64,000 nucleotides of DNA from Coffea arabica (taxonomy: Eukaryota > Streptophyta > Magnoliopsida > Gentianales > Rubiaceae): assembly GCF_036785885.1 (NCBI RefSeq), contig NC_092326.1, forward strand, positions 1 through 64,000. The letters are read 5' to 3'. Positions within the stretch are counted from its first letter, which is position 1, and each line of letters starts with the position of its first letter. Under the pieces are notes generated by a model. It was not told the origin of the DNA, ran no database searches, and worked only from the letters and a program-made list of their open reading frames with translations. The translations under genes and the position numbers were made by a program. Shown one piece after another: positions 2,533 through 39,827 of the stretch.

Positions 2533-3310
2533 CTTTTCCACATTGGCATAATGGCATTCCCATTTCGTGTCCTGCTGGAGAAGCAAATGTGAATTTAACT
2601 TTGCTAATCATTACTAATTCCACATCATAATAAGATTACCATAAAGGTTAACCAATAATTAACGAAGGAAGCATCTTATGACCCATATGTTTCCCCTTCC
2701 TTCACGGGCAATAAATGGTAGTAGTAGCAGTAGTTGTTGTTGTACATATTTTACTTGAAGCGTTTTGCTATCATTCAAACCAAAAATAGTAGGTGTATCT
2801 TAGAATATCGAGCAAAGTGCCTAGAAAGGAATCCTAATCTTTTCGAAAATTAACACTTTTAAAAAGCGTAGGAGATTTTTTTATTATATTAGGAAGAGAT
2901 TTTGGGAAATGACATTAAAATGGGGTGACGAGGATTGGATTGACTTTCGAGGAAATTTTCTTGACAACGCATTTTATTTTATGGTCGTTCAAAGGTGTTA
3001 TGGGCAGCATTTAATGCCTTTCTTTTCAAGTCCAACCTGCTTCTTCCTTTCATATACTATTCATTATTCGTCACAGGCTCTTTTTTTTTTTTCAATTTAA
3101 CTTTTTCTGAGGATTATCCACGTTGCTGTTACGTTTATCTGGTAATGCAAGCTGGCAAATGACACATTATTTTTACAACTCAATCAACCGCGCAATGTTT
3201 ATATAGTACTATATGGATCACAATTTTAAAGTTTTTCTTTCCTTAACTCTCGTAGCAAAATAATTTTTTGTTATTTAAAAAAAAGGAATAAAATATAGAG
3301 TAAAAAATTT
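2533..3310. other. AT-rich intergenic DNA, nothing recognised
   Basis: No gene, RNA or repeat with clear ends was found. The small frame at 2909-3100 has no family resemblance. Confidence 0.4.
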
Positions 3311-3499
3311 GGGAGTTCTTAAACTATTGCCGTTATCAACTTTTGGTCCCTCATCTAAAATTTGTTTACGATTGGCCCTTAAACAATAAAAAATGCATAC
3401 TTTGAGGACTTCCGATGACTTTAAACACAAATCTGACCGGATTTAAAGGGCATCTTTGTCTGTTCATGTTTGAACCCTCGGGACCAGCAACTAAAACCC
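3311..3499. repeat. Left terminal inverted repeat of the MULE
   Basis: Runs from GGGAGTTCTTAAACTATTGC to CTAAAAC and is the reverse complement of 8822-9008 with scattered mismatches and small gaps. Long TIRs of this size are typical of the Mutator superfamily and often contain the element's promoter. Confidence 0.85.
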
Positions 3500-4137
3500 T
3501 AAGAATAGATTAAAAGATGCAACTCTTCAATTTTTAAGCAAACCAAACTCGAATCTTCGGAAATCCTTTCCAAAAATCCAGTTTTAACCATAACAAAAAC
3601 GCATTTCTTGTTGAAATTTCATCTAAAGTATAAGAATGGCTAGATAATCTTTCAATTACAGCTATTGAAGGTTGCATGGGAAAAATTCTGTATTGAAAGC
3701 TACGGATCGATAGAGAAATGGATTGGATAATCAGAAGAAGGGATACATATTTTGATCCATATCTCGTATACGGTAATGTGCCTCTCGATTTGTAAGCTTA
3801 TATCGTTGGGGTTTGCGTGTGTAATTGTTGTGTTATTATTGAAAGATTTGGGGCTGTTTCTTAGATGCTAGTTGATAGGGGTTTAGATATAGTGGAGGTT
3901 AATTAAATTAATTGGATGGAAACAAGATCTGAGAGTTTTGTCCTGTTGGTCGGTTGCATGGGGTCCTACTATATCTATGGTCCATTTTTAGTGTACTGAA
4001 AATAGTAACTTAATGAAATTTCTGGTATAGAGTTTGACAAAAAATAGTTGATGTTGCATGGGCAGTTGTTTATTAGCAATTTTGCTGCTTATTTTTACTA
4101 CTCTATGAATATAGTGATTTTTTTTTTAATTTGATAC

Positions 4138-7100
4138 ATGATTGTGCAAAACATGGGAGTGAATATTTTACTATTAGATTGCAGTATGGGGGGCCTATTT
4201 AATGGTTCAGATTACAGATTTTATATTGGTGGTGAAGTTGATCATGTAGATTTGTGTGATGGTGATAGAATGTCAGTACTTGAGATTAATAGAATGTTAA
4301 AAAAACGGGGCTATGGGGAAGAGGAAGCTGTGTTGTACTATTACCTTGAGCCGACAAGTGTTCTATTTGATGGACTAAGGCAATTGCAAACTGATCAACA
4401 TGTTAACCAGTACTGTAGTTGGGTACAGGAATATAAGGTGATGGAAGTTTATTGTGACCATAAAACCATTGAAGAGGTATTGAAAATGCAACTCAATGAG
4501 CCAGTAGAGACATATGCAGCACCACAAAAATCTGGTGTTTTGATAGAAAAAATAGATGATGAGGGCAAAGTTATAGAGGAGCCTTGTACTAATATGGTAT
4601 TAACAAAAAAGCCTTTGAATGCTAGAATTCGAAATCAGAAAAAAAAAAAAAAAAGTGGTGCAAGTGTAAGTGAAAATTTAACAGAAAAACAGGTCCAGAA
4701 AGACATGCTTAAACAAAAGATTCCAACTTCACAAGCTGAAATTGAAAGTGGCAAACAAAAGACAACAGCTAAGACAATGGGAGAGGTAGGTACTAGTAGG
4801 GGTAGAAACAATGATGATGCTGATGACACGAGCAGCAGCTCAGATGATGAGCAGTTCAGTGCTGATGATAATTTCTGCAGAGATGACTTGATGTTTGAGG
4901 ATACAAGCAGTATAGATGAAATAGAAAATGGCCAGCAATCTGTGGGAAGCTAGCAGTAGGAGCCTAAAATGGAAAATGCGACTGGACTTCCAACATTCCT
5001 ACCCAATAATCACAAAAGAAAGGCAGAAAGAATAGAGCAAGACAGCCTGCAACTTTTGGTTCAAAAACCATAGATGTTAGAGCTGCATTTGCTGGGGACA
5101 AAATAGATGATCAACTAGATAGTGGTGAAGAGTCATCCGAGGAAAGGGGAGGACATATCCCTAAATTCATTGACTTTATCCCAGAGAGGGACATGAAGAA
5201 TCCAAAATTCTTTAAAAGGCAAAGATTTGCTGATAGCAGGGAGTTCAAAGAAACTCTTAAAAACTATGCAATTGTTAATGGTAAACCTGTGAAGCTTTGC
5301 AAAAATGAGAAAAAGAGTTAGAGCAAAATGTAAGCCCCCCCTGTAGGTGGTTTCTTTTTGCCTTAACAGTAAACTGTCTAGGCACAAATGACTTAGTGGT
5401 GAAGTCAATCTATGATAAGCATGAAAATTGTGGTCATGCTTGGAAGAATAGAGCTATTATCTCAAAGTGGTTGGCAAATAGGTATGAAGAGAGATACATT
5501 TCTAACCTACAACTGCCTGTGAAAGAGCTAATACAAACGGTTGATGAAGAATATAGGTCCAAAATCACTATAGCAGTGGCATATAAGGCAAAAGCATTAG
5601 CTATTGAAACTGTGAAGGGTTCAGCTGAAACTCAGTACAAACTTCTGGGTAGGTACTCTGAGGAGTTTAAAAAAACTCATCTAGGTACAACAACTGAAAT
5701 TATGTTCACTCCATTCAGAAAACCTGATGGTAATCCAACATTTATGCGATTTTATTGCTGTTTAGGACCACTTAAGCGGGGATTTTTCAGTGGCTGCAGG
5801 CCACTAATTGGTCTTGATGGTTGTCACATTAAAGGAACTTATTGTGGTTAATTACTAACAACCATGGGTGTTGACCCTAACAATGGATGGTGGCCCATTG
5901 CATAGGCAGTTGTTGAAAAAGAAGTTGGAGAGCAATGGAAATGGTTCCTTCAACTCAATTGCTGATGACCTGAATATTGAGAATCAATATTACTACACCT
6001 TCATTTCTGATCAACAAAAGGTAAGAATATCAATATACTTTGAGTGTTAACAATTGTTCCAATAAAAATGATATTTTTCATGTTTATCAGTTTGAGTGTT
6101 GACTCATGTTTTTTACCTTTGTAAAAGGACTGGACAGAGTTATGTCTGAGATAGTTCCTGGGAGTGAGCATAGATATTGTGTACAACATATGTACAGAAA
6201 TTTTAAAAAGAAACATCCGAGCAAAACTTTAAAGGCCTAGATGTGGAGATAGCTACTAGCACAATTATGGAAGAGTTCAACAAGGTCATGGAAGACATGA
6301 AAGATTTTGACTGTGAGACCTTTAAATTGGTGGAAAAAACACCTCATGCCAGGCACTGGTGCAAGACATTTTTTCCAGTCCATACGAAATGTAATATGCT
6401 AGTAAACAATATTTGTGAATCATTCAATGCCTTCATTCTTGAAGCCAGAGACAAACCAATAATATCAATGCTTGAACAAATAAGAGAGAAACTCATGCAG
6501 AGGATCCAACAAAGAAGAGAAGTGGTGTCTAAATAGACTGAACCAGTAGGGCCCCTAATCAAGGAATTGATTGAGGATAGAATTAAGCAGGCCTGCCTTT
6601 GGGAGCCAATCTGGAATGGCTTGTATGGCTACCAATTCAAAGGTCCTCGGGCAACATAATATGCAGTAGATTTCAGGGAAAAACACATGCACATGCTAAC
6701 TTTGGGAGATAAGTAGGATTCCTTGTATTCATGTCATTTCTACAATGTTGGTGTCTAGTAGAAATCCAATGCAGTTCACAGCCCCATGCTACTCAAGAGA
6801 GTTGTTTGCTAAAATTTATGAGAATGTCTTGGAGCCAATTAGTAGGGTCTCACTTTGGCCTAATTCTGAACATTTGGAAATGGATCCTCCAATCGCTTTT
6901 GTACAACCTGGAAGGCCGAAAAGGCTAGAAGAAGGGATATAACAGAGGAAAGGAGAAATGGTACCAAGTTGCGTAAGATAGTTGTGATGCGCTGTAAAAA
7001 ATGTGGAGAGACTGGCCACAATGCTGCAACTTGTTCAAAAGACAAAGGGGCTGAGTAGCGATAGCAAAGCCAAAATTCAGAAAAGCAACAGTCCAAACAA

Positions 7101-7718
7101 GTATGAAATTTGAATTTTCACTAATATTCTTTTTACATTAATCACATATTGATCTGGCCAAATTTACACTTTCAGAGAAGGAGAGGAAATTCCAATGCAA
7201 AGCAGGGTGTACCTGAATCTTCTCATGCAAATAGAGAGCAGGGATAGCACTTGAGGCACCCCACCCAACAGCAGGATCAATCACAGAACAACCAACAATA
7301 GCAACCATCTCAGGCTAGACAACAACACCAGCCACCACCCTCCAGTCAGTCAACACTATAGCATAAGCAGCGGCAACCACCCCAAAATCAAGCCTCCAGG
7401 ACAAAGAAAAACAATACTTTGACTGATGCTGAAAAAGGTTGGATAAACTCCACCTATGCTTATCTTGAAAAGCAGCCACCTTTTACCGTAGGAAGATGGA
7501 AAGAAAGATGGGGCAAAGATAGAGCCGCAAGAAATGGTACTCAGAATCAAAGTGAAAGTGCTGGTGGAAAAGGAAGAGGAAGTGGGAATCGAAATCAAGA
7601 TGAAATTGTTGGTACAGGAGAAAGAAGAAATGTCAATCAAACTCAAAGTAAGGGTGCTGGTGCAATAGGAAGAGGAAGAGACAGAGGACATGTGCCATCA
7701 TCTTCAACAAACTATTAG
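4138..7718 (+). pseudogene. MuDR-type MULE transposase, broken by stops and frameshifts
   Basis: Successive blocks read in changing frames. 4138-4953 is an N-terminal region with a PB1-like segment (GGEVDHVDLCDGDRMS) and an acidic/Lys-rich linker. 5200-5850 is the MuDR domain up to the first catalytic Asp in IGLDGCHIKG. 5850-6020 reaches the second Asp in FISDQQK. About 6021-6127 looks like an intron. Then come the C-x2-H motif (YCVQHMYRNFKK, near 6180), a helical block (6243-6536), a SWIM-like remnant (about 6660-6760), and a CCHC zinc knuckle (CKKCGETGHNAATC, about 6990-7035). A Gln- and Gly/Arg-rich tail ends at 7718. Breaks include stops at 5849 (likely Gln codon), 5903 (likely Trp) and 6533, and a frameshift at the C run near 5333. 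It would bind the TIRs and cut DNA if intact. Confidence 0.88.
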
Positions 7719-8233
7719 ATATGTAGACTAGTCAATGGCATTGGATGCCCTTTTGCTTTTGCTTTTACTTTTGCTCCTAATTGAATGAGCAGAACATGAC
7801 TTGTCTCTTGCTATGTAGAGCATGAAAATAACTTGTCTTTTTGGTTTATTCTTAGATGTCATACAGTTGGACCACATTTTGTTTGTTAATTATGTGGCTT
7901 GACTCTTGGTATTAATGATGTAATTATATGTTGGCAGTTGATATTTAATCAAAAAGGTCTTTGATTTCCCTGTGTTTTATCATTTTTTTTTCTAGTTTTA
8001 CACTATTCTTGCTTTACACAAGAACGCATCAAACATGCCTTTCCATCAACTGTACATTGCTCACAAAAACAGAATAAACCACATTTACATTAAATCTAAC
8101 CAACAACACAATACGTTCTGTATCCAATTAAAGCAAAACATGTTTTTCCATTCACCCCTGAACTACATTTGTACATTTTATTCCTTTGCTTATAATACAT
8201 CATTATGGGGTAATTGCAATAGATCATTATTCC
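7719..8233. other. Space between the two convergent MULE genes
   Basis: AT-rich DNA with no coding signal. It lies between the stop of the transposase (7718, plus) and the stop of the GRF gene (8234, minus), so it should hold both 3' untranslated regions. Confidence 0.5.
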
Positions 8234-8712
8234 CTAAATTTCCAACCAATAGACTGCAAATCCTACTAACACAAAGCCGTAGGTGATTGCAAGAGTTGCA
8301 GCAAACTTCCTTTCCCTTGATGCATGTCGTTGCACCATAATTTCTAACCTTCAAACCTTTGTCTGCAATTTTGCTGCTTTGCACTCCCACTTTTGTGCAG
8401 ACTCTTTGGCATTTTTGAGTTGTTTCTCCATTTGATTGATTCGCCGAAGCAACCCAGGCATAATCTCCACTGAACGCGGACACATTTCTTCATCTATCCA
8501 TTTCCAATACTTGCATCCCTAACCCAAATTCATAACAAACAGCAATTATTGACAGCGGTTACTAACAACTTCAATAAATTACTCCTATCTATTACCTAAG
8601 CAAGCGGGCATTCCGCATATCTTCGACCTGGATTCCGTGGAGTCCATGACGATTTCACAATGGTACTCAATCCGCAACCACATATTGGAGGTATTGGATT
8701 TGATCTTGGCAT
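8234..8712 (-). pseudogene. GRF-type zinc-finger protein with C-terminal membrane anchor, carried antisense in the MULE
   Basis: Minus strand, two exons: 8712-8596 and 8518-8234, joined in phase 0 by an intron with GT and AG ends. Exon 1 starts MPRSNPIPPICGCG and contains SWTPRNPGRRYAECP, the first half of a plant GRF zinc finger (Cys-x-Cys then Gly-Arg-Arg and Cys). Exon 2 continues GCKYWKWIDEEMCPR, then a coiled-coil stretch (LLRRINQMEKQLKNAKE), and ends with a hydrophobic helix (LAITYGFVLVGFAVYW) and a stop at 8234. Two defects are visible: a TAG as the last codon of exon 1, one C-to-T step from CAG, and a frame change near 8355 after a TGA. The layout GRF finger, coiled coil, tail anchor matches a large set of small plant GRF proteins. 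Function is unknown; the location inside MULE ends suggests an accessory transposon gene. Confidence 0.75.
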
Positions 8713-8821
8713 TTTCCACCTTGTTGTTTCCAATGTTATACGTGCAACAAAACCCTAATTTTTCTTCTTTTTTTTTTGCAGAAGAAAAAGATGAAGTTGG
8801 TGATAAAAGGATGCTCATATT

Positions 8822-9008
8822 GTTTTAGTTGCTGGTCCCGACGGTTCAAACATGAACGGACAAAAATGCCCTTTAAAGCCGATCAGATTTGTACTTAAAG
8901 TCATCGGAAGTTCTCAAAGTATGCATTTTTTATTGTTTAAGAGTCAATCGGAAACAAATTTTAGATGAGGGGCCAAAAGTTGACAACAGCAATAGTTTAA
9001 GGGCTCCC
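8822..9008. repeat. Right terminal inverted repeat of the MULE
   Basis: Reverse complement of 3311-3499. Its inner end reads GTTTTAGTTGCTGGTCC and its outer end GCAATAGTTTAAGGGCTCCC. Confidence 0.85.
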
Positions 9009-9275
9009 CAGGTTCTCAACTATTTAACTGTTATTATTATATTTATTATGACAATTAGATCAACATGTGTATAACTCAAATCAATCTAAGAAAACAATCC
9101 GTACATGTGGTCACATGCTCAAAGTTCAATGCCATGGACATTTATGTAAAAATCGAGAGCTAAAAAAAATCAGCAAGACACAGCTTTATATTTTAAACTT
9201 TTGACATACAACAATGAATTTTGATAGATAAAGATATATCTCACAAAAATCTAATTCAAAATCTAAATGTTAAAT

Positions 9276-38605: not shown

Positions 38606-39409
38606 CTATATGTCACCTTTTTTTTTATTCCCGTTAGAAGTATTGGTAGAAGGCACGCCATTGCCCATTCCACAACCAGGAAGCTCCTTCAAGCCTGAAT
38701 TTTGGTTGCCTGAACAGTGAAGATTCTCAAATTCACAATCATTGAAGCCTTGACCATTCAATGTTGCAGCTTCAGCACTTCTGCCTTCTGATCCGGGATG
38801 AAGACAGTAAAGTTGATCATCACATCGCACATTACATGGATTCATCACATATGCAGCCGGCAGATTATGATTAGCAAGATAAGCATCCCCACTCTTGTTG
38901 GCTGACTTCTGATATGGGAAAGATCCAATCTCACCTTCAATCCTTCCTCTGATATCCACAAGCAAGCACTTAAGCCTTGCAATTTCAGCTTCCAAAACAG
39001 CCTGACCCTGCAGCCTCTTCATCAGTTGCTGATTCAAAGCCCTCAACCTAACAACCTCATCCTCCAATGAAGCAGCCCTAGCCTTTTTCTTCTCCCGATA
39101 CTTGCGCACAGCTTCACGGTTCCCTAAAGGTCGTTTCTTTGACTTCTTTTCAGTGGACTCAGCAGTGTCATCAGTGGGGGTCTTATCTTCGCTTGGGGCA
39201 GGCACAATTTTTGTGTGGACATGATAACAAGTGTGGGTGTGCGAGTTATCAGGACCAGGCGGGTTGCAAGTATGGGTATGGGTACAGGCATGGGTATCTT
39301 TAAGAATTTCATCAAGGAAGCTACCCATAGAGCAACTACTTGGAAGATCACCAAAACTCGAGTTCGAAAACATTTCATGGTTTGAAAACTCAAGCTCCCC
39401 GTCATCCAT
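38606..39409 (-). CDS. bZIP19/bZIP23-type (group F) zinc-deficiency transcription factor
   Basis: A single coding exon of 267 codons. Residues 40-65 form a His/Cys-rich motif in two parts (HACTHTHTC and HTHTCYHVH) typical of plant group F bZIPs; in Arabidopsis bZIP19/23 this motif binds Zn2+ and reports zinc status. The basic region (KKRPLGNREAVRKYREKKKA) has the invariant Asn97-x7-Arg105, followed by a zipper with Leu115, Leu122, Leu129, Ile143 and Leu150. Group F factors bind the palindrome RTGTCGACAY and switch on ZIP transporters and nicotianamine synthase under zinc shortage. The 5' leader is probably split: an AG acceptor at 39425 and a GTATG donor at 39827 fit a 5'-UTR intron. The start follows MDDGELEFSN, as in the family. 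bZIP24 (salt) is the alternative, less likely because of the intact double motif. Confidence 0.92.
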   Translation of the reverse strand: MDDGELEFSNHEMFSNSSFGDLPSSCSMGSFLDEILKDTHACTHTHTCNPPGPDNSHTHTCYHVHTKIVPAPSEDKTPTDDTAESTEKKSKKRPLGNREAVRKYREKKKARAASLEDEVVRLRALNQQLMKRLQGQAVLEAEIARLKCLLVDIRGRIEGEIGSFPYQKSANKSGDAYLANHNLPAAYVMNPCNVRCDDQLYCLHPGSEGRSAEAATLNGQGFNDCEFENLHCSGNQNSGLKELPGCGMGNGVPSTNTSNGNKKKGDI

Positions 39410-39424
39410 TATACCAGCAAAACG

Positions 39425-39827
39425 CTGGCAGATTTACCAATTAGATACAATCTTACGAAAATGACCCAAGTCAACTCAAAAAGCCTACCTACGCTCGATC
39501 AGAAGCCTAAATTCGATACGGGGTCAACCAGATGTCAAACCCTAGAAAAAACAGAGCCCAAAATGCATGATAAAGCTAAAATCTTCAATCGATTCAGGCA
39601 TAAAGGAATTGAATTCTCACAAGCAGAACAAGTTTAAAAGCCTCCAATTAAGGGCAGGGCGCCATGGGATCAAGATACATAAAACAGCAAAAACTCCCCC
39701 AAAGCTGATGAATTATTTCTTTGAATCCGGTCGAACAATTGAAGAATTAAAAGCAAACAGAGCACTTAATAAAACTTCAAAATTCAATGGTTAAGCCGCA
39801 GTATACAAAATTCAAAAGCAGACATAC
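39425..39827 (-). other. Probable 5'-UTR intron of the bZIP gene
   Basis: Minus-strand donor TGG then GTATGTC at 39827 and acceptor CTGCCAG ending at 39425, 15 bp before the ATG. The leader exon would run from 39828 to about 40060. This is inferred from splice signals only. Confidence 0.45.

Follow-up and report, generated by a model that had tools for sequence, protein, structure and literature searches.

A GRF-type zinc finger gene recurs beside the transposase in Mutator-like elements of Coffea arabica

A decayed two-gene element

The window analysed here is the first 64,000 nucleotides of Coffea arabica contig NC_092326.1 (assembly GCF_036785885.1, forward strand), and it contains a dead Mutator-like element (MULE) with two genes enclosed by terminal inverted repeats (TIRs), the coordinates of which are given in Table 1. 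The transposase gene is in pieces, and because it is broken its remaining Pfam matches lie below the cut-offs (DBD_Tnp_Mut, 16.5 bits; SWIM, 13.1 bits; zf-CCHC, 17.2 bits). An earlier note, made from the letters of this stretch, had proposed that the opposite strand encodes a two-exon protein with a GRF-type zinc finger, a helix and a hydrophobic C-terminus, and that this gene is convergent with the transposase, lies inside the TIRs and shares the decay of its neighbour. All of this agrees with what we find: the exon coordinates are exact, and the translation contains a GRF-like signature (CxC ... NPGRRYxxC ... C-YWxWxD) followed by a charged helix and, at the C-terminus, by a hydrophobic stretch. 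Decay of the GRF gene is evident from a TAG that ends exon 1, a TGA within exon 2, and a length one base short of the sister copy L030 late in exon 2. A target-site duplication was looked for at the window copy and none was found.

Table 1. Coordinates of the element and its parts in the window.
Feature	Position	Strand	Remarks
MULE	3298..9020	.	left end GAGTAAAAAA at 3298, from sister-copy comparison; right end eroded near 9008-9020 (estimate)
Left terminal inverted repeat	3311..3497		187 bp, 91% vs right repeat
Right terminal inverted repeat	8822..9008		187 bp, 91% vs left repeat
Broken MuDR-type transposase gene	4135..7715	+	sub-threshold DBD_Tnp_Mut, SWIM and CCHC remnants
GRF exon 1	8596..8712	-	start codon at 8712; first half of finger; last codon (8596-8598) is a stop here
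Putative intron within GRF finger	8519..8595	-	inferred from frame and sister copies
GRF exon 2	8234..8518	-	second half of finger, PGLL motif, charged helix, stop codon; in-frame TGA at 8351-8353
C-terminal hydrophobic segment (putative tail anchor)	8243..8305	-	from sequence; hydropathy from the homologous L030 segment (Kyte-Doolittle 2.26)

The putative intron splits the finger, and in exon 1 of the window copy the Pfam GRF match is sub-threshold at 14.8 bits (cut-off 25.9). Across copies the intron is more diverged and richer in indels than the exons; between L030 and L032, for example, the exons differ at 6 of 117 and 18 of 326 sites, and the intron at 10 of 77 sites with an additional 17 gap columns. 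We note that GC replaces GT at the presumed intron donor in L030 and L042, both of which are otherwise open.

Copies of the element elsewhere in the genome

The genome searched comprises 1.198 Gb in 131 contigs. The window element is present at 100% identity on contig C91 (3938-9617), a copy that is possibly an unplaced haplotig; beyond these two, a DNA search gave ten more near-full-length matches of 88-96% identity among the matches listed (33 of 460 candidates scored). Three of the sister copies have TIRs of 320 bp (L029), 331 bp (L030) and 204 bp (L031), and all three carry both genes, partly broken; the absence of the GRF gene from other copies, which the earlier note had named as an outcome against its reading, was thus not seen. 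TIR length thus varies inside the window family, from 187-204 bp (window, L031) to 320-331 bp (L029, L030); in a second set of elements, described below, L026-L028 have TIRs of 126-131 bp. Perfect 9-bp target-site duplications flank five of the seven elements tested (L026, L027, L029, L030 and L031), and none was found for L028 even though its TIRs are present.

The transposase frames of L030 exceed the Pfam cut-offs for DBD_Tnp_Mut (34.6 bits), MULE (34.3 bits) and SWIM (34.4 bits), as do those of L026 (52.6, 71.2 and 33.8 bits respectively); in the L027 transposase piece only DBD_Tnp_Mut is over the cut-off. With these transposase domains, long TIRs and a duplication in the 8-11-bp range, the family is a Mutator-like one. 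In the window family the GRF frame is open across both exons in 6 of 17 aligned copies (L030, L033, L034, L036, L038 and L042), L038 having lost one finger cysteine despite its open frame; L046-L048 contain too little GRF sequence and were left out of this alignment.

GRF and transposase genes are linked in two sets of elements

A protein search with exon 2 of the L030 GRF gene listed 150 matches (150 of 684 candidates scored), and a search with the L030 transposase listed 108 (107 of 2,137 candidates scored), two rows of which are pieces of one element. A convergent GRF gene lies within 8 kb of 83 of the 108 listed transposase matches, and in 77 of these 83 cases at 2.06-2.49 kb. The pairing extends well beyond close relatives, since 66 of the 87 listed transposases below 75% identity are linked to a GRF gene and convergent partners occur next to transposases with as little as about 50% identity. 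When a third search, with the transposase of another family, is included, 94 of 131 distinct transposase places and 94 of the 150 GRF matches are linked; under uniform placement 0.26 linked pairs are expected by chance, and we therefore rule out chance adjacency.

A second set of transposases, seeded with L027 and sharing no match with the first, shows the same arrangement: 86 of 113 listed rows have a convergent GRF gene within 8 kb, 81 of them at 1.8-3.5 kb; some elements contribute more than one row. Two near pairs in each set are not convergent, and in every case the transposase has another GRF gene that is. The possibility raised by the earlier note that the GRF gene of the window is a one-off is thus contradicted by its recurrence, in the same place and orientation, beside distant transposases and in the second set.

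There is no GRF gene among the matches listed within 8 kb of 37 of the 131 transposases in the first set and 27 of the 113 in the second. Four of the 25 unlinked transposases from the L030 search were checked, and three have a GRF gene at the expected spot (one with a stop and one with a frame shift); at the fourth, L085, the gene is absent from that spot. Counting only among the matches listed therefore explains the unlinked transposases in part. Conversely, 56 of the 150 GRF matches have no transposase among the matches listed, and some of these are window-family copies whose transposase sits further away. Around L024 and L025, which carry GRF genes of the class found in the second set (class 2), we recognised no transposase-bearing element between TIRs in the fetched 10 kb. 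In two scans of viral contigs no relative was confirmed.

The two genes share a history

For comparison of the two genes we picked 18 linked pairs from the 83 in the first set, favouring open frames, and added L030 to give 19 loci, all of which encode the same GRF protein plan. Distances among the GRF proteins are correlated with those among the transposases (Mantel r 0.95 for the 19 loci and 0.85 for nine family representatives; p 5e-5, the minimum of the test), and the main groups of the FastTree phylogenies agree. The placements of L069 and of L030/L061 differ between the trees, and are weakly supported in that of the GRF proteins.

The intron provides a second line of evidence. The finger is interrupted by a gap of 77-107 bp in 10 of the 18 loci, like that of L030 (97 bp), and by 0-6 bp in the other eight, and these eight intronless GRF genes correspond exactly to a single transposase clade (support 0.998) and likewise to a single clade in the midpoint-rooted GRF tree. 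Because they form a single transposase clade, one intron change inherited together with the transposase explains them all. The five class-2 GRF genes that were read (L024-L028) also lack the finger intron, and the change may thus have been either a loss or a gain.

Selection on the GRF gene

Of the 171 possible pairs among the 19 loci, 19 have a dS of 0.02-1.6, and in all of these the GRF dN/dS is below one. The deeper pairs give 0.15 for L059/L077 (p 7e-6) and L083/L077 (p 1.4e-5), 0.16-0.17 for L057 against L059, L077 and L083, and 0.21-0.23 for L069 against L053, L071 and L075; eight of the 11 closer pairs are individually non-significant. Transposase values are like those of the GRF gene in close pairs, fall to 0.05-0.06 at depth (L057 against L059, L077 and L083), and are saturated for L069. 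The lower deep values of the transposase indicate that the GRF gene evolves faster and under weaker constraint. In the second set, the comparison of L027 with L028 gives a dN of 0.256 and dS of 1.70 for the GRF gene, and a dN of 0.282 and dS of 1.39 for the transposase.

With a dN/dS of 0.15-0.23, the deeper pairs show purifying selection on the GRF gene from family to family, which is the outcome that the earlier note had proposed to look for; within the window family, however, no such selection was detected. In 15 of the 17 aligned copies (L043 and L045+44 were dropped) and 132 of 148 codons, shared variants number 40 nonsynonymous to 13 synonymous, which gives no signal of selection and fits neutrality (p 0.68), and pairwise dN/dS ranges from 0.30 to 1.58. 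A selection signal within the family may be masked by post-insertion decay and by recurrent deamination.

Features of the GRF protein

Six of the related GRF proteins were scanned against Pfam, four of class 1 (L053, L057, L059 and L069, all intronless) and two of class 2 (L026 and L027). The GRF domain (PF06839) exceeds its 25.9-bit cut-off in four of them (L053 at 29.6 bits, L059 at 26.3 bits, L026 and L027), and L057 and L069 are just under it at 25.1 and 24.3 bits. Zinc-ligand cysteines are invariant at positions 12, 14, 36 and 41 in eight class-1 proteins, all from intronless families, and at positions 25, 27, 50 and 55 in five class-2 proteins. The best profile matches in the PDB are the GRF fingers of NEIL3, with 7omk (E 3.3e-7) and 7jl5 (6.7e-7) for profile A2 and 7jl5 (5.7e-4) for profile A1. 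By sequence the coffee finger is thus the same zinc ribbon as in NEIL3 and APE2; what differs is its setting, next to a helix and a hydrophobic C-terminal segment in a protein where no catalytic domain is recognised.

By hydropathy score, as distinct from a trained predictor, the C-terminal hydrophobic segment is present in all 24 proteins compared (19 of class 1 and five of class 2), with best 19-residue Kyte-Doolittle values of 1.63-2.83 at 1-39 residues from the end. The lowest values, 1.63-1.67, are those of L061, L063 and L081, and the greatest distance from the end is in the L059 group, where 39 residues follow the segment.

The structure model of L069 hints at two strands followed by one long helix (residues 49-127), although it is a poor model of low confidence (pLDDT 59). 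Residues 73-133 of the L059 frame (301-801) give a sub-threshold match to CHD5 (23.8 bits; cut-off 29.3). The CHD5-like family includes GET1/WRB, a handler of tail-anchored proteins; we have set the match aside, as it probably reflects similarity of a coiled coil and membrane helix.

Role of the GRF gene in the element

The GRF gene is almost certainly an old and standard second gene of MULEs, in at least two sets of elements in this genome. Each gene begins near one terminal repeat and runs inward, with transposase and GRF gene convergent, the GRF gene inherited jointly with its partner, and both genes under selection between families. By sequence the product combines a zinc finger of the NEIL3 kind with a coiled-coil-like helix and a single C-terminal hydrophobic segment. 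The reading that we prefer goes further. The protein would be tail-anchored in the endoplasmic reticulum (ER) or nuclear envelope by this segment; the finger, on the cytosolic or nuclear side, would bind the transposition complex or single-stranded nucleic acid, and the protein would thereby help the element to propagate. Taken as a whole, this picture of a two-gene MULE with a tail-anchored GRF helper is moderately probable. Of its parts, anchoring in a membrane is likely, and a direct part in transposition, rather than in countering silencing, is our first but tentative choice.

An alternative is that the protein acts against silencing, interfering from the ER or nuclear membrane with the small-RNA or methylation machinery of the host; VANC counteracts silencing by another route. 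Precedent comes from the VANDAL/Hiun elements (vanA, vanB and vanC), which also have extra genes beside a MULE transposase, one of which, in the Arabidopsis Hiun element, is anti-silencing according to the available text of PMC6446971. Selection between families fits any role that serves the element, this one included; the resemblance of the finger to those of repair proteins that bind single-stranded DNA points elsewhere, and we consider an anti-silencing role rather unlikely.

A soluble protein seems to us improbable to a similar degree. Here the hydrophobic tail would be an oligomerisation helix, and the product a cofactor that joins the transposase in the nucleus, comparable to MURB of MuDR. 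In favour of this are the finger, which belongs to a DNA-binding kind, and the 39 residues beyond the segment in the L059 group, which are long for a tail anchor by the usual limit. The segment is nonetheless strongly hydrophobic and C-terminal in every one of the 24 proteins from both sets, though with lower scores in L061, L063 and L081, which favours the membrane. In maize, integration is reported to depend, apparently, on mudrB (PMC6446971, available text), in keeping with a cofactor role.

That the GRF gene is a captured host fragment, carried along as in Pack-MULEs and of no use to the element, is very improbable: the neutral-looking variants within the window family would suit it, and a GRF-domain gene inside a TNR12/MuDR element of rice has been read as captured (PMC3503983; the passage does not specify the zinc-finger sense of GRF), but its constant position and direction beside the listed transposases (94 of 131 in the first set, 86 of 113 in the second), the history and the intron change shared with the transposase, and the between-family dN/dS all count against it. 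A one-off capture we reject, because the gene recurs, because its history is that of the transposase and because a single change accounts for the intron pattern.

Relation to known elements and to plant gene annotation

The maize element MuDR likewise has two genes, mudrA and mudrB, within long TIRs and a transposase of the same type, and its mudrB is in convergent orientation. To our knowledge MURB has not been described as a GRF or membrane protein. The known second genes of MULEs are, in the available text of PMC6446971, mudrB (the function of whose product is called unknown), vanB and vanC, and, in a number of plant groups, antisense genes for a plant mobile domain (PMD) protein; the term GRF is absent from its main text. 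The PMD-bearing MULEs resemble those of coffee in having an antisense second reading frame, but the protein encoded there is PMD, whereas the second proteins of coffee are GRF proteins, with no PMD match in the six that were scanned (Pfam, E <= 0.1).

In the literature searched, a scope outside which Repbase and most subscription papers fall, we found no paper that presents GRF as a usual companion of MULEs. In two papers that mention both MuDR and GRF, GRF denotes growth-regulating factors or an entry in a table of transcription factors. A GRF-type gene is listed in a switchgrass transcription-factor table (PMC5206262, available text), and in the text seen of a barley stem-rust association study one is discussed alongside the GRF transcription factors, with which it shares only the abbreviation (PMC12540453). 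GRF-type and SWIM-type fingers are among the domains enriched in Asteraceae genomes, beside transposon domains (PMC10359422, available text), an enrichment that would fit MULE-borne spread. Second genes of MULEs are already known, and it is the recurrent GRF partner that appears new within this literature.

What the second genes of plant MULEs do has long been asked, and a recurrent partner under selection, with a recognisable finger and a putative membrane tail, offers a tangible way into the question. There are also consequences for annotation, in that GRF-type genes are listed as ordinary host genes, whereas transposons may be the owners of some plant genes that have lacked an explanation. 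The small plant proteins that public annotation names after At4g04775 or At1g43920 are probably GRF proteins of a similar kind. A broader proposal, the chances of which we see as evenly balanced, is that, of the small and unexplained GRF-type genes annotated in flowering plants generally, a large share are in fact the usual second gene of MuDR-type elements. They would encode a membrane-anchored factor that binds single-stranded nucleic acid and acts in transposition or against silencing; its co-evolution with the transposase would predate the separation of the two sets, and its genes would have been mistaken for host genes or captures.

Other GRF-bearing loci and a bZIP gene

A third group of GRF genes is present at L009-L019 (10 kb each), where in 11 of 11 loci a GRF gene near position 2500, counted in the GRF orientation, is convergent with a conserved frame of 219-220 amino acids near 3630-4330. 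A scan directed at two of these frames found no counterpart in Pfam; the three GRF frames that were read in this group (L009, L010 and L019) likewise end in a hydrophobic stretch. At L022 (8184-9998, minus strand) and L023 the layout differs from the convergent one, a GRF exon lying downstream of a long frame on the same strand; in L022 this frame (605 amino acids) matches the MULE transposase and ZSWIM domains. At L020 and L021 a GRF finger near position 2500 is inside a gene that seems to resemble the host repair enzyme APE2 and is probably an ordinary host GRF gene. Finally, the window also contains a frame for a bZIP transcription factor at 38609-39433 on the minus strand (bZIP_2, 45 bits), with His/Cys-rich stretches reminiscent of the bZIPs of the plant zinc-deficiency response.
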